Positions 45,248 to 53,027 of a stretch of DNA of 64,000 bases are shown piece by piece. The stretch lies in assembly GCA_025062195.1 (NCBI GenBank), contig JANXAS010000014.1, positions 1 to 64,000 on the forward strand, written 5' to 3'. Each line of letters opens with the position of its first letter. The first letter of the stretch is position 1. Source of the stretch: Armatimonadota bacterium. GTDB lineage: Bacteria; Armatimonadota; Fervidibacteria; Fervidibacterales; Thermosaccharophagaceae. Made by a program: the position numbers and the translations under genes. Under the pieces are notes generated by a model, which made no database searches, was not told the DNA's origin, and saw only the letters and a list, made by a program, of their open reading frames with translations.

Positions 45248-48200
45248 ATGCACAAAAGTGAGCAGCGCACCGGTGTTCTCTTCGCTCATCTCGCAATATT
45301 AGTTGGGTTAGCTTGGGCAGTCGTTGGGGTTGCAAAGTTGATTATGAGCGAGCAGCCAACTGCATCTTTAAGCGGTTTGGTCATAAGCTCTGTCACAGGG
45401 AAACCGATACCGAAAGCTACCGTCACATTGCGCCCTGCCGATACAACTGGCGTTATTGTTAACCGAGTGTTTAATGCCAGATGCGACAAGCATGGCGAAT
45501 TCTCATTCCGCATAATACCAGCAGGCTTGTATGAGATTGAGGCTCACTCACCAGCGCATTCGTTGTCTCCGACCCATCTTAAACTCCGTGAAGGCGCTAA
45601 GGAGAGAGTCACACTTGAACTATTACCAAAAGAGCCATGGCTGCACCTCATATTGCCGCAACGGACATTTACGACGAGTGAGCGAGTGCGCATAAGAGTG
45701 AGAGGGTTTGTGCTTGAAGATAAGCTGACGCTAAAGGTGCACAAGGTTGATGTGCAGCGTTTACTTTCCTCAGGCGGCGTGGAGATACCGCAGCAGACCA
45801 GTTCGGAGTGGGGCATTGAGCAAATTTTTGCTCCTGAGACGCCCTCAAACTTTGATTCATCGTGGTGGCGGGAAAGGAATGAAGCCTTGCGGAGGTTCAT
45901 TGAGGTGTATGGAAAGAGCATGCTCATGAAGGACGTGCCAGTAAGTGGGCGAGATGGGGAGGGCATCTTCACCCAGTATGTGGATGTTCCAGTTAAGCTC
46001 CCCGGAGTCTACTTTGTTGAATTAAGTGCGGGCGGGAGAAGAGTTTACACGAGCATAATCGTGGTAGACATTGGTGTGGTGGTTAAGTATGGCGGACAGA
46101 GGACGCTGATCTACGCGTGCAAGTTGGACAGCGGGACGCCAGTTGCAGGTGCAGTTGTGTTCGTGAGCGAAAGGATGAGAAATGGGTTGAAGGAACTTGG
46201 TGTCACTGGCGAAGACGGTGTTGCGGTAGTTGATACAAACAAGATCCCAAGGGATACCGATGTGACATTCGTCGTGAGCTACAATGGTCAAACATGTTTT
46301 GCTCGCCTTTATACCGGCATGAACCCAAATCAAAAATACAGGGTGCACATTTACACTGACCGACCGGTGTATCGTCCCGGTGACACTGTTCACTTCAAAG
46401 GGATTGTGAGACTTCAAGGTGACAAGGGTTATGTTGTCCCTGATGAGACGAATGTTGAATTTGAGCTGCGTGACAGGGGTGGGCGCAGAGTTTGGACTGG
46501 CAGCGGGCGAACGAACCCATATGGGACTTTTCATGGCAGCTTGAATTTGCCCCATGAGATAGCGACGGGCAGCGCCACAATTGCGGCGATCATTGATGGC
46601 GAGCAGCACGAGCGCACGATACAAATAGCGGCATACCGAAAGCCCGAGTTCGCCATCAAAGTGAGCGCTGAGCGCACAGACTATCTGCCAACCGAAGTTG
46701 TGCGTATTAGCGTTGAAGCACATTATTACTTTGGCGTGCCCGTAAGGAATGCGAAGGTGCATTATAGAGTTTTTCAAGTTGAGCTGCCATGTGATGGGTT
46801 GATTGAAGGTGAGGGCGTTGGTGAAGATGTGGAGTGGTATGAGTGGTCTTACGGCACCGAAATAGTATCTGGGAAGGCTGTGACGGATGAGAATGGCAGG
46901 GCACGGATAAATTTCAAAATGCCATATCCAGAGGAGTTCATTCACGCTGCACGGGATAGCAGTCGTGACAAATTGCACATTGTCACGCCGCCAGTATACA
47001 GTCAATCCGTTTGGGTAAGCGTGACTGACGCTGGCGGAAGGGAGGTTGAGCAGTGGCTTTCGTTAAAACTTCATCCGGCATCGCTCTCTGTCTCCATTGA
47101 GCCTCAAAGGTATCTTGCCAGTCCGGATGAAAAGGTTGCCGTGAAGATTAAAGTGAGCGGTTTGGATGGCAAGCCAGTTGGTGGTGTGAAGGTGAAAGCT
47201 ATATTCGGGAAGGTGTTTTGGGAGTGGGATACTCATGAGTTTAGGGTATACCTCAAACCATCTGTGAGCACCACATTGACCACATCTCAGTCTGGCGTTG
47301 CAAATTGGGTTGTCAAGCCAACGGATGTAGGGGAGTGGGCTGTTTACGCCATTGTTGAGGACGACATTGGTTGGTGGAATGCTGATGCGGAATATATCTG
47401 CGCATACGAAGATGGTCTGCCATTACCCGAGGTGGAAAGGCAGCCAAAGCTGGAGTTTGTTTCCGAGAAGCGTTCATTCTCAGTTGGGGAGAGAGCAAGG
47501 GCGATGCTTCGTTCAAGCATTAGGGATGCCTATGCGCTCATCACGATTGAGGCTGAAAAGGTTTATAGCCATTGGCTTGTTAAGCTTGACGGTAATGCGA
47601 AGCTGCTTGAGTTTGATGTGCAACCAAGCTACATCCCGGGGGTTTGGCTATGCGCAGCGCTTGTGCGTTCAAAGGAGCTCAGCGAGGCTAAGGCATTCAT
47701 TGAGGTCTCAAAGGCTGCGAGGGAATTAAAAGTGAGTGTGCAGCCAAGCAAACAGCGATGTTCCCCCGGTGAGGTTGTTGAGTATCTCATAAAGGTGACT
47801 GACAAAAATGGTAAACCGGTGAGGGCTGAGCTTTCACTTTCTGTTGTGGATGAAGCCATATATGCGATAAAGGATGAGCCGTTAGATGAACTGTTGAGGG
47901 CATTTTACGGGCGAAAGCAACACGAAGTGGTAACGGTTAGCTCCTTCCCCGAACTATATCTGCAAGCTAATAAAGTTGGCGTAGAGAGCGTTCGGAAGCA
48001 CTTCCCCGATACTGCATTTTGGGCACCGTCGCTTTACACCGATGAGAAGGGCATCGTGCGCATAAATGTGAAAATGCCAGATGCTATTACAACATGGAGA
48101 GCCACTGTTAAAGCCGTGAGTATGGACACATCTCTTGGGGTTGCGCTTGACAGGCTCATCGTGAGCAAACCGTTGATGGTGCGCTTACAACTGCCTCGTT

Positions 48201-50062
48201 TTCTCACTGAGGGCGATGAGGTGGATGTTGTTGGGTTAGTCCATAACGAGTCCGATGGGAAAAAGGAATTGATGGTGCGACTCTCATGTGATGGGTTAAA
48301 TGTTGATGGTGATAGTGTGCGCAAGGTGAAAGTGGGACCGAGAGATGCCGCAAAGCTTGTATGGAGGGCAAAGGCGACAAAGTATGGCTATGCAACGCTC
48401 ACGCTAAGCGCCAAATCAAGCGATGGTTGTGGTGATGCTGTCCAAAAGCGTCTACAAATATTGCCGCTTGCAATACCTTACAAATTCACGAAGTCCGGTA
48501 GGCTGAATGGCGGTGAAGCCGAAAGAATCACCTTACACATCCCCAGCGATGCTTTAAAGGATGTTGGGGAGGTTGAGGTCTTACTTTCGTCGTCTCCGGC
48601 AGGTTCAGTGCTTTCAGCCATTGAATTCCTCATCAGCTACCCGTATGGGTGCGTTGAACAGACGATGAGCAGCTTCATGCCGGATGTGCTCGCATACCGC
48701 GCTTGGAAAGAGTTAGGGTGGGCGTTCCCAACATCACTTGAGAAAGAGTTGCCGAAGATGGTGGGGCATGGCTTGGTAAGGCTTTACAGATACCAACATG
48801 AAGACGGCAGTTGGGGATGGTGTTACTACGACGATGCCGACTTGTGGATGACGGCTTATGTTGCATACGGTTTGCTTGAGTGCCGCGATGCTGGATTTGA
48901 AGTTGACAATGTCGCTTTAGAGCGGGCTGGGTATTGGCTCAAAGAGCATTTGCCATCCGCTATGCACAGTCACTCGCATGATTATGCATGTGCACTCGCA
49001 TGCTATGTGCTTGCGAAATTGGGTGAGCGCAAAGGTATAGTGCCACAGGCGCATTGGATTAAAAGGGCGTCGCCAAAAGCAGTGGCACTGATTGCTATGA
49101 CTGCGCATCGCGTGGGCGATAATGCTGCATTCAATGTTGCAATGAGGCAGCTGTATAAGGGGGTTATTGAGGGAGTAGAAGAATGCACTTGGGGAACGGT
49201 TGAGGATACAGCTTGGGCGTTGCGTGCGCTTTTAAACGCTGAAGATGTGAGCGACATTAATGAGCGCCATAGGGTTCGTGAGCTCGCTGATAAGGCAGCA
49301 AATTATCTCCTCTCAATACGCACCGGTGAGTGCTGGGAATCAACGAAACAAACTGCCGTCGTTGTGGCTGCACTCGTTGATTACCTTAAGAAGCGCCGCT
49401 GGACGCCGCCGAGAGGGACTTTTACAGCTGCTTTGAATGGTAAAAAGCGCAGCATAAAAATTGATCCAAAGCACGCCTACCATGAGGATCTGACTTTGCG
49501 CATCAGCATCAATGAAGCAATTGAAGGCGATAACCAACTCACACTTCAGTTTGATGGTAGTGGCACACTTTATTACGCAACCATGCTGAATTGCATGAGG
49601 CGCATTGGCGCACAAACACGATATATCGCCTCAAGTGGCATTACCGTTACAAGGTGCTACGAACTCATTACATACGGCAGTGATGGCAAGGAATACTCGC
49701 GCGAGCTTGCGGATAGATTGAAGTGCTCTCAAGGCAGCATACTCAAATGCACGCTGACGGTGAACACCTCAAAGCCGCTCAGGTATCTGCTAATTGAAGA
49801 GCCATTGCCAGCTGGTTGCGAGGTTATTGAGCGTGGTGAGCTTGAAAGATATGAGTGGGATTTATGGTATGCTGAGCAAGATATTCGTGATGACAAGATC
49901 GTCTTCTTCGTCAGAGAGATGCCGCGTGGGACGAAGAAAATCTCATACAGGTTGCGTGTTGAATGCTCTGGTAACTTTACAATCCTTCCGACGACAGTGA
50001 GTGCAATGTATGAGCCAACTATTATGAGCAGGGGTTCGCCCCAACTTATCAGCGTGAGGTAA
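45248..50062 (+). CDS. Alpha-2-macroglobulin family protease inhibitor
   Basis: A 1604-residue envelope protein. A signal-anchor helix (about 12-32) has no lipobox Cys. A carboxypeptidase regulatory-like beta domain (about 40-130) is followed by macroglobulin domains, with the family motif DRPVYRPGDTVHFKG around residue 375. A bait-like segment comes next, then the alpha-2-macroglobulin core with SVVDEAIYAI, TDEKGIVRINVKMPD and ITTWRATVKAV. The thioester motif YPYGCVEQ gives Cys1135 and Gln1138, followed by an alpha/alpha thioester domain and C-terminal beta domains. Such proteins trap proteases in the periplasm. A GAGGTGG ribosome binding site precedes the ATG. pbpC, its usual partner, is absent. 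Confidence 0.94.
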   Translation: MHKSEQRTGVLFAHLAILVGLAWAVVGVAKLIMSEQPTASLSGLVISSVTGKPIPKATVTLRPADTTGVIVNRVFNARCDKHGEFSFRIIPAGLYEIEAHSPAHSLSPTHLKLREGAKERVTLELLPKEPWLHLILPQRTFTTSERVRIRVRGFVLEDKLTLKVHKVDVQRLLSSGGVEIPQQTSSEWGIEQIFAPETPSNFDSSWWRERNEALRRFIEVYGKSMLMKDVPVSGRDGEGIFTQYVDVPVKLPGVYFVELSAGGRRVYTSIIVVDIGVVVKYGGQRTLIYACKLDSGTPVAGAVVFVSERMRNGLKELGVTGEDGVAVVDTNKIPRDTDVTFVVSYNGQTCFARLYTGMNPNQKYRVHIYTDRPVYRPGDTVHFKGIVRLQGDKGYVVPDETNVEFELRDRGGRRVWTGSGRTNPYGTFHGSLNLPHEIATGSATIAAIIDGEQHERTIQIAAYRKPEFAIKVSAERTDYLPTEVVRISVEAHYYFGVPVRNAKVHYRVFQVELPCDGLIEGEGVGEDVEWYEWSYGTEIVSGKAVTDENGRARINFKMPYPEEFIHAARDSSRDKLHIVTPPVYSQSVWVSVTDAGGREVEQWLSLKLHPASLSVSIEPQRYLASPDEKVAVKIKVSGLDGKPVGGVKVKAIFGKVFWEWDTHEFRVYLKPSVSTTLTTSQSGVANWVVKPTDVGEWAVYAIVEDDIGWWNADAEYICAYEDGLPLPEVERQPKLEFVSEKRSFSVGERARAMLRSSIRDAYALITIEAEKVYSHWLVKLDGNAKLLEFDVQPSYIPGVWLCAALVRSKELSEAKAFIEVSKAARELKVSVQPSKQRCSPGEVVEYLIKVTDKNGKPVRAELSLSVVDEAIYAIKDEPLDELLRAFYGRKQHEVVTVSSFPELYLQANKVGVESVRKHFPDTAFWAPSLYTDEKGIVRINVKMPDAITTWRATVKAVSMDTSLGVALDRLIVSKPLMVRLQLPRFLTEGDEVDVVGLVHNESDGKKELMVRLSCDGLNVDGDSVRKVKVGPRDAAKLVWRAKATKYGYATLTLSAKSSDGCGDAVQKRLQILPLAIPYKFTKSGRLNGGEAERITLHIPSDALKDVGEVEVLLSSSPAGSVLSAIEFLISYPYGCVEQTMSSFMPDVLAYRAWKELGWAFPTSLEKELPKMVGHGLVRLYRYQHEDGSWGWCYYDDADLWMTAYVAYGLLECRDAGFEVDNVALERAGYWLKEHLPSAMHSHSHDYACALACYVLAKLGERKGIVPQAHWIKRASPKAVALIAMTAHRVGDNAAFNVAMRQLYKGVIEGVEECTWGTVEDTAWALRALLNAEDVSDINERHRVRELADKAANYLLSIRTGECWESTKQTAVVVAALVDYLKKRRWTPPRGTFTAALNGKKRSIKIDPKHAYHEDLTLRISINEAIEGDNQLTLQFDGSGTLYYATMLNCMRRIGAQTRYIASSGITVTRCYELITYGSDGKEYSRELADRLKCSQGSILKCTLTVNTSKPLRYLLIEEPLPAGCEVIERGELERYEWDLWYAEQDIRDDKIVFFVREMPRGTKKISYRLRVECSGNFTILPTTVSAMYEPTIMSRGSPQLISVR

Positions 50063-50582: not shown

Positions 50583-50626
50583 TAAAAAGAGAGCGCCCCG
50601 CAAGGCAAAGAGCCTTGCGGGGCGCT
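50583..50626 (-). terminator. Intrinsic terminator of the SLH-porin gene
   Basis: A perfect 15-base stem (AGCGCCCCGCAAGGC, 50592-50606, pairing with 50612-50626) closes a five-base loop. On the minus strand it is followed by CTCTTTTTAGC. It lies 30 bases after the porin stop codon and is the strongest rho-independent terminator in the window. Confidence 0.93.
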
Positions 50627-50655: not shown

Positions 50656-52449
50656 TCAGAACTTGTAGCTGCCGCTCAACCGGATGAAGTGCCTGTCAGC
50701 ATTCGGACCAAGCACGTTGGCAGCGTTGAAGAACCCGTAGAGCACATCCAGGTCAATTCTCTCGCCAAGCACCCACTTATAGCCGACTGTAAAAGCCCAG
50801 CCAAGGTCGTTGCCATTTGTGTCATCGCCACGGAACCAGCGCACATTTAGCCAGTTGCCAGCTATCTTCCATGCCAGACGGACATCAAACACATCACGCA
50901 GCATTACTGGCACAATCCCAGGTGCTGCAGGTGTAAGCGCACCGATTGCTGGCAAGCCCGGACGGAACATCAATTCGCCGCGGGAGAGATAGAACGGGTT
51001 AAGCACCGATGCAGGATGTGGGCTATAGCCTTCATCGCTTGATGCCCACGAAAGATCAAGCTTGAGTGACGGGAGATTAAGGATATTCAGGTCAAGCCAC
51101 CACAGGTTCTCGCCATCCGGATCCACATTCTCCCAATCCTTATCGGTGTAGACCCACTCAGCACGGAACTTCGTCAGGTAGTTGCCCTCGGGGAAGATAT
51201 CAAAGTGCAAGTCCACACCATAGCCCCTGTAATCACCAACGCCAGTATAAAGTGCATTTGCCCCGATGTGCCAGCGGTCTTCATCGGTCCTCCATGAGAG
51301 CCTCACTCCAAATACGCCGTCATTCTCCGGAACATCCATTCCGACAATCTGTCCCATAGCACTGTTGTTATAACCTCGGAAGGGATCATATGCATCCACA
51401 TCGGCAAACAGCAAGCTCAGGTTGATTGAGCCAAATGCGCGGTCCCAACGCAGCCCATCAAACGCCGAGAATTGATTGTCAAGCAGGAAACCGTAGCCAT
51501 ACTTGACGAACTGTCTCCCAAGGACAGCTTGCCCACCAACTATCGGTGCAGGACCTGTAAGCTTGCCCTCGTAGATGTCAATGCGCTCCGTGTCCCTACC
51601 TGCCTCCGTCCCGTTGACCCAAAGCAGGTGCAAGTTTGCGTTCCAGTCTTCGCTCACACGGAAGCCAAGGTTCAAGTCAGCACGCAAGAAACCATAGCGG
51701 TCTTCTGGCCAATCAAGTGAGTCCGCCTCATCTGCAACATCGCTGAGCCAATCAGCCGTAAACGATGCCGAGCCTTCAACACTGAGCCTTGGGACACCAA
51801 CTGCTGCAGCTTCCTCCAACTTCCTCACTCGTTCCTCAAGTGCACCCATGCGCTCTTCCACTTTCTTGAGCTCGGCACGGAACTCGTCACGCAAACGGCT
51901 AATTAGCTCCTCAAGCTTCTTCACATCCACAGCTACAGGTGCCTTAACTGCCAGAACCTTTTCTACAGCAGCCTGAATCTCCTCTGGGGTTGGTGGACGA
52001 CCAGGTGGACCTGGTGGACCTTCAGGGCCTCGCGGACCCTCAGGGCCTCGTGGACCTTCAGGGCCTCGTGGACCTTCAGGGCCTCGCGGACCCTCGGGGC
52101 CTGCTGGGCCTCGTGGACCTTCAGGGCCTCGCGGACCTTCAGGGCCTCGTGGACCTTCAGGGCCGGGAGGACCTTGAAACAGTTTACGCCACTCGGGGTC
52201 GGTGCGTATCTTGTTCAAGATACGCCAAATAGCCAGAGCAAACTCATATCGTGTCATCGGCTGTGAACCCTTGAAAGTCCCATCGGGGTAGCCCTCAAGG
52301 ATGCCCCACTCAATGAGCTGGCGCACTGCTGCATACGCCCAGTGGGTTGGTGGGACATCCTTCGTCTCAGCGGTTACTGTTGAGCGAAAGCTAACGGCAA
52401 AGAAAGTTGTTGCTACAACGCTGATGAGCATCCAACTTGCTTTCCGCAA
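50656..52449 (-). CDS. SLH-anchored outer-membrane porin with collagen-like stalk
   Basis: A 597-residue envelope protein. Signal peptide 1-28; one S-layer homology domain (about 30-80: [35 protein letters not shown]); 20 collagen-like triplets at 93-152, mostly GPE-GPR; a coiled coil (about 175-215); and a beta-barrel of about 380 residues ending in GSYKF with the C-terminal Phe recognised by Bam. By analogy with OmpM/Slp proteins of Negativicutes and Deinococcus-Thermus, the SLH domain binds peptidoglycan-linked polymer and the barrel sits in the outer membrane, tying the two together. The collagen spacer, likely trimeric, is uncommon. The TTG start is fixed by AAGGAGG eight bases upstream. 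Confidence 0.92.
51994..52173 (-). repeat. 18-base minisatellite encoding the collagen-like stalk
   Basis: Near-perfect tandem units reading GGCCCTGAAGGTCCACGA on the minus strand encode GPEGPR. One unit is interrupted by GPA, and the ends read GPP. The units differ only at wobble positions, so copy number can change without a frameshift. Confidence 0.9.
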
Positions 52450-52736: not shown

Positions 52737-52765
52737 ATTATAGCAACATTGCATTTGGTTGTAAA
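52737..52765 (-). promoter_or_regulatory. Near-consensus promoter of the SLH-porin gene
   Basis: On the minus strand TTTACA (52760-52765) and TATAAT (52737-52742) are exactly 17 bases apart, and TGC precedes the -10, giving an extended -10. This is the strongest promoter in the window, as expected for an abundant envelope protein. Confidence 0.85.
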
Positions 52766-53027
52766 GCCACACATTGCTATGGAGTTAAGGTATCGCTATT
52801 GCATTATAGCGCGAGCTTGTGCGCTGTAAATGGAAAATGTGAATGTCCAAATTTTTGATTGCGCTTGCCGTTAACCAGCCAAGCTGCAACGGCGGTTTAA
52901 TTTTGCAAGCATTGCTGCGATGCATAATTTTAGTGTGCAAAGCGCGCTTTCTGTTCGGGCGTGGGTGAAAAGCATAATCTATCTCTGACAGCATGGTAGG
53001 AAACATGAATCATGAGGTGAGGGAGCA

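Follow-up and report, generated by a model that had tools for sequence, protein, structure and literature searches.

A collagen-stalked OmpM/SlpA-type porin in Armatimonadota and the possible match of its stalk to envelope spacing

The porin gene and its domains

The window is a stretch of 64,000 nucleotides (contig JANXAS010000014.1, positions 1 to 64,000) from an Armatimonadota bacterium. On its minus strand lies a gene encoding a porin of the OmpM/SlpA type, which carries a collagen-like segment. The following features were assigned to the gene and its surroundings:

50656..52449, minus strand: coding sequence of a collagen-stalked OmpM/SlpA-type porin, 597 aa, TTG start, stop codon within the range
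52369..52449, minus strand: signal peptide, residues 1-27, read by eye, with a putative cleavage site between VTA and E
52237..52362, minus strand: single SLH repeat, residues 30-71 (Pfam PF00395, 8e-11)
52174..52236, minus strand: helical link from SLH to collagen, residues 72-92 (AlphaFold2 helices 67-83 and 85-91)
51994..52173, minus strand: collagen-like stalk, residues 93-152, 20 Gly-X-Y triplets (Pfam PF01391, codon count)
51787..51993, minus strand: coiled-coil stalk, residues 153-221 (AlphaFold2 helices 155-167 and 176-218)
50659..51786, minus strand: outer-membrane beta-barrel, residues 222-597 (18 strands, 222-596, in the AlphaFold2 model; Foldseek)
52737..52765, minus strand: promoter-like TTTACA-17-(TG)TATAAT, 11/12 match
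52803..52830, minus strand: promoter-like TTTACA-16-TATAAT, 11/12 match
50592..50626, minus strand: strong intrinsic terminator downstream of the porin gene, 15-bp stem followed by TTTTT

The sequence AGGAGG is found 8 nt upstream of the TTG start. Both near-consensus promoters are arranged in tandem on the porin strand, approximately 290-380 nt upstream, and the gene is isolated, with its own promoters and terminator. A lone porin gene with two promoters and a strong terminator would fit an abundant major protein. The leader between promoters and start codon is about 285 nt long, and an Rfam search of this leader matched no family. The neighboring genes encode an alpha-2-macroglobulin-type protein (1,604 aa, 45248-50062, plus strand, convergent with the porin gene), PrmA, an RNA methyltransferase and a GDSL lipase, and indicate no shared pathway.

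An initial sequence-only reading of the locus had proposed that a single polypeptide joins an SLH domain, collagen triplets, a coiled coil and a barrel. Pfam, AlphaFold2 and Foldseek bear out this domain order. The signal peptide and the C-terminal Phe, which that reading had also pointed out, are both visible: A27, adjoining the putative cleavage site, is near-invariant in the family alignment, and Phe is the final residue, closing the outer-membrane beta-barrel. The SLH repeat contains the TRYE motif at residues 66-69; T66, R67, Y68, E69 and F70 (TRYEF) are invariant in the alignment, as is the HWAY stretch of the domain. Conserved residues of the coil are L186, E189, F190 and L211. According to the model, the coil is present between SLH and barrel, but is separated from the SLH by the 20 collagen triplets.

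The collagen match covers residues 93-151 (PF01391, 1.6e-8, 34.6 bits, cut-off 27.2), and the Gly-X-Y run is uninterrupted. The segment had been described as 20 GPx triplets. A codon-level count gives 20 Gly-X-Y triplets indeed, but only 19 of them are strictly GPx (8 GPE, 7 GPR, 3 GPP, 1 GPA), the remaining one being GRP. The 20 glycines observed in register compare with a maximum of 7 after the residue order of the protein was shuffled 5,000 times. At the DNA level, the stretch consists of near-identical 18-nt repeat units. An antisense collagen-like frame with 19 in-register glycines was rejected as a gene, as it mirrors the GGN-CCN codons and is broken by a stop. In the AlphaFold2 monomer model, the collagen segment has a pLDDT of approx. 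43-57; such low values are expected of a lone chain and, thus, neither favor nor disfavor a triple helix. The segment may fold as one, and 60 residues at 0.286 nm would then give 17.2 nm, in agreement with the approx. 17 nm suggested before.

Known relatives and occurrence in the phylum

A profile built from 46 relatives matches OmpM1 of Veillonella parvula (8bys, 8bym; 1.9e-40), collagens, and SlpA (7zgx; 4e-32). The top Foldseek hits are V. parvula OmpM1 (9.5e-14) and the MOMP of C. jejuni; together with the 18-strand model, these fold matches support an outer-membrane barrel as the C-terminal domain, as had been supposed. Placement of the window protein among OmpM/SlpA-like tether porins is therefore well supported by profile, fold and TRYE motif. 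It shares with OmpM1 a signal peptide, one SLH repeat per chain, a coil and a porin-like barrel. However, the SLH of OmpM1 passes straight into the coiled coil, whereas the window protein inserts 20 collagen triplets, and its modeled barrel has 18 strands compared to 16 in OmpM1. The collagen insertion was considered a variant feature and was not counted against membership. SlpA of Deinococcus radiodurans has the same order of SLH, trimeric spacer and barrel, but its spacer is coiled coil throughout and its barrel is 30-stranded. OmpM1 and SlpA are known to trimerise and to bind the wall (PMC10628300, PMC9388160); by analogy, the window porin probably forms trimers and its SLH probably binds the wall. 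In SlpA, a spacer coil of 28 nm compares with a measured distance of 30 nm between outer membrane and peptidoglycan; the same paper lists members from Armatimonadetes, and the word “collagen” is absent from it (PMC9388160). No description of an SLH-collagen porin was found in the literature searched, and the papers on OmpM and SlpA among it do not mention collagen.

To our knowledge, none of the bacterial collagen-like proteins Scl1/2, BclA and Bucl8 combines an SLH domain with a porin barrel. They resemble the window protein in their Gly-X-Y repeats, for which hydroxyproline is not needed (PMC8968730), but are surface or spore proteins, Bucl8 being an outer-membrane efflux component. One might suppose that the window protein is likewise a surface protein with collagen and SLH pointing outward, in the manner of collagen-like adhesins, considering that well-known bacterial collagens, among them Scl1/2 and BclA, are located on the surface (PMC8968730) and that Bucl8 joins collagen and an outer-membrane channel (PMC7682875). 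We regard this as very improbable: the collagen precedes the barrel in the chain and lies with coil and SLH on the side that is periplasmic in OmpM and SlpA, and the protein has no anchor or second barrel.

SLH proteins were gathered from dozens of Armatimonadota genomes. The combination of SLH, collagen and coil occurs in 90 proteins from 58 genomes, covering at least 21 families of the phylum. Thus, the architecture is a phylum-wide variant and not an oddity of a single genome, and the earlier suggestion that a collagen rod in an SLH-coil-barrel protein is rare does not hold. The number of triplets varies from approximately 5 to 58. In nearly all members, the link from SLH to collagen has 11-25 aa and the coil 44-70 aa. 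A phylum-wide trade-off between coil and collagen length was rejected, as the coil is near-constant (44-56 aa) in most families.

Such variation could be expected if the Gly-Pro segment of an OmpM-type tether were a flexible or drifting low-complexity linker, whose length changes by repeat slippage and which has no role as a ruler. The near-identical 18-nt units and the wide range of triplet numbers would fit this explanation, as would those members elsewhere in the phylum in which Pro-rich or Ala/Pro linkers replace the collagen. Nevertheless, we consider it unlikely, since the X and Y positions diverge across 21 families, but the Gly at each third position is retained; further arguments from stalk length are given below.

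Several members deviate in other ways. OmpM paralogues of one genus (L109-L111; genus g6, family f5) have a Pro-rich stretch and a longer coil instead of collagen, and one genome (G018) relies on a long coil alone, its SLH and barrel being approx. 200 residues apart. Family f29 has shorter SLH-collagen proteins (L154, L157, L158; about 460 aa), which are without a coil, carry a linker rich in Ala and Pro and differ in their C-terminal part; they are possibly a separate porin class. In a related genome (G002), a frameshift or an assembly error divides the OmpM gene L048 into two frames, 428 and 251 aa long. Outside Armatimonadota, an indirect test on named genome matches, plasmids and viral contigs gave SLH-sized matches only, and for plasmids and viral contigs the BLAST low-complexity filter may mask collagen. 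Two OmpM-like SLH sequences, 54-60% identical (L254, L255), lie on one 111-kb IMG/VR contig which is filed as viral but is probably bacterial DNA.

The composition of the stalk differs between families as well. Pro occupies 95-96% of the X positions in families f1 and f2 compared to 4-82% in the others. The proteins of the window appear thermophilic by composition; their IVYWREL fraction is 0.437, which reportedly corresponds to about 75 °C in a published regression. This high Pro content, seen in two related families only, would be consistent with a triple helix that has to remain stable in a hot environment.

Stalk length within and between genomes

If the stalk spans one gap, the OmpM copies of one cell should share its length. 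This is what we observed. The SLH-to-coil length differs by a mean of 2.0 aa in 36 within-genome pairs, compared to 3.5 aa when genome labels were shuffled inside families (p = 0.0002); one genome (G282) was excluded from this test, as its copies look split or misassembled. For pairs with barrels less than 42% identical, the difference is 1.9 aa within genomes and 4.5 aa between genomes of the same family (Mann-Whitney p = 1e-4). An agreement so far beyond shuffled labels also speaks against the slippage-driven linker. Link and collagen change with opposite sign within genomes in a ratio of 20 to 1, but the boundary between them is partly arbitrary, so this trade-off is partly definitional and was not used as separate evidence, though it is real for total length.

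Gene conversion of the N-terminal part might also produce equal lengths within a genome, with shared ancestry accounting for any correlation across genomes. Indeed, the X and Y positions of the stalk are slightly more alike within than between genomes (42-52% vs. 39-44% identity), and family f11, discussed below, is one clade. However, SLH identity of the more diverged pairs is not raised within compared to between genomes (71.7 vs. 72.8% and 70.3 vs. 74.4%), which argues against gene conversion, and the length match persists in pairs with less than 50% stalk identity (p = 0.003). Shared ancestry, in turn, is countered by independent contrasts on an RpoB tree, in which the correlation of the stalk with two other envelope proteins, TamB and MlaD, is kept (r = 0.77 and 0.75, respectively; all tips). 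Taken as a whole, this explanation is improbable.

TamB and long MlaD proteins are thought to bridge the inner to the outer membrane. Their lengths were taken from an HMM search and a subset was checked on the sequence (TamB of G253 and G001: 1786 and 2039 aa, compared to 2697 and 2261 in the search table); TamB frames seeming truncated or split were excluded from the correlation. TamB adjoins a BamA gene in most genomes. The MlaD of the window's genome is modeled with a TM helix, an MCE domain, approx. 340 helical residues, the helices being of low confidence, and a small barrel. This is the same order as in V. parvula, whose long MlaD has a modeled helical length of 23.5 nm at a periplasm width of 24.2 nm (PMC10665443). 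In contrast to the porin, MlaD is a lipid transport bridge and no tether, and was used in this comparison solely as an independent marker of length. All values in nm assume straight rods with a textbook rise of 0.286 (triple helix) or 0.1485 nm (alpha-helix) per residue.

Stalk span correlates with the length of both bridges. On family medians, rho is 0.76 for TamB (n = 21) and 0.64 for MlaD (n = 22), and 0.65 (28 families) and 0.51 (31 families), respectively, when coil-only members are added. Tree-corrected controls gave r = −0.12 for BamA length and −0.01 for RpoB length. Genome size, which itself correlates with stalk span (rho 0.46), was rejected as a confounder, since the tree-corrected correlation is still 0.73 after its removal. 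Signs of the contrasts agree in 26 of 42 and 28 of 44 cases over all tips. Without family f11, however, the tree-corrected r falls to 0.27 for TamB (p = 0.09) and 0.33 for MlaD (p = 0.03). The tree-corrected signal rests largely on this one lineage, and the weakness of the correlation outside f11 is again what a slipping linker would produce.

Family f11 has stalks of 44-58 triplets, MlaD proteins of 797, 888 and 912 aa, and TamB proteins of 2,882 (a lower bound), 4,300 and 4,365 aa, the last two over double the usual 1,750 (G257:C7 and G259:C444, i.e., L187 and L188; G013:C78, i.e., L189). Stalk, TamB and MlaD lengthen in the same order over the three genomes, with the TamB of G013, cut by the contig end, counted as a lower bound; independent drift of a linker would not predict this. 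The extra length of MlaD sits in the helical bridge. Outside f11, MlaD gains 6.8 ± 1.4 aa with each nm of stalk, compared to 6.7 for a 1:1 alpha-helix. The pattern recurs a second time in family f16, in part with long coil for collagen (TamB approx. 2,850, MlaD approx. 670 aa), and a third time, more mildly, in the window's own order (TamB 1,997-2,112 aa, MlaD 593-622 aa, stalk 23-30 nm). Family f6 (G008, G022, G046) is discordant, with TamB of 2237-2499 and MlaD of 599-628 aa, yet a stalk of 12-17 nm; this mismatch would be accounted for by a second tether or by a wide inner gap. Scaling of the stalk with independent envelope markers is, thus, partly supported: r is 0.75-0.77 overall, weak without f11, and contradicted by f6.

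A candidate tether matched to the outer membrane–wall distance

The best explanation of these data, to which we assign a probability of roughly two in three, would be an OmpM/SlpA-type tether whose stalk of collagen and coil is matched to the gap between outer membrane and peptidoglycan. Three chains would form three outer-membrane barrels, and their N-terminal arms would merge into one stalk, ending in an SLH trimer on the cell wall. In Armatimonadota, a collagen triple helix would be placed between SLH trimer and coiled coil, and the three-fold domains at both ends of the rod would keep the chains in register. Per residue, a triple helix would extend about two times as far as a coiled coil and, since collagen is a repeat, its length would be adjustable in steps of three residues. 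The total length of the stalk would be matched to the distance from outer membrane to peptidoglycan in each species; the OmpM paralogues of one cell would all be suited to one common gap, and their stalk would co-evolve with the TamB and MlaD bridges. Earlier, the stalk had been proposed to set the width of the periplasm. The distance spanned would not be the whole periplasm, but that from outer membrane to peptidoglycan. The proposal itself has become a correlated and testable hypothesis by means of the paralogue match and the TamB/MlaD lengths, although f6 is an exception and the signal leans on f11. Of the readings considered, the stalk as spacer is the best, with support from the paralogue length match and, in part, from the co-variation with other bridges.

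The collagen may set the spacing or may itself be adapted to it, and any distances between outer membrane and peptidoglycan given here are estimates from the stalks. Wall thickness or another tether may fix the gap, with OmpM, TamB and MlaD selected to fit. The mutual correlation of TamB and MlaD (rho 0.82 on family medians) is at least as strong as that of either with the stalk, and long TamB and MlaD proteins occur with a short stalk in f6, both of which would be expected if the stalk follows the envelope. This sub-reading is compatible with the matched tether and shares all its sequence predictions; only the direction of causality differs. We consider it a real possibility, although the odds are against it. 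A more far-reaching version of the matched tether is offered tentatively, at slightly less than even odds: triplet number might act as a repeat-encoded, evolvable ruler between outer membrane and wall which co-evolves with TamB and MlaD, one lineage having stretched all three to a gap near 50 nm.

What determines envelope spacing in bacteria is still an open question, and most work on it has dealt with Lpp in E. coli. Lpp is also a tether between outer membrane and peptidoglycan with a length linked to envelope spacing (PMC8824477), but is an unrelated, small helical lipoprotein and covalently attached to the wall. The collagen-stalked porins provide a natural series of tethers, estimated at approx. 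15 to 59 nm, whose length is varied through a simple repeat. TamB and MlaD, as two unrelated bridges, give independent read-outs in the same genomes. The almost pure GPx stalk in the window's probably hot-spring lineage hints at how a triple helix may be stable without hydroxyproline when hot. If the proposed tether is true, it would be a load-bearing use of collagen in the periplasm of bacteria.
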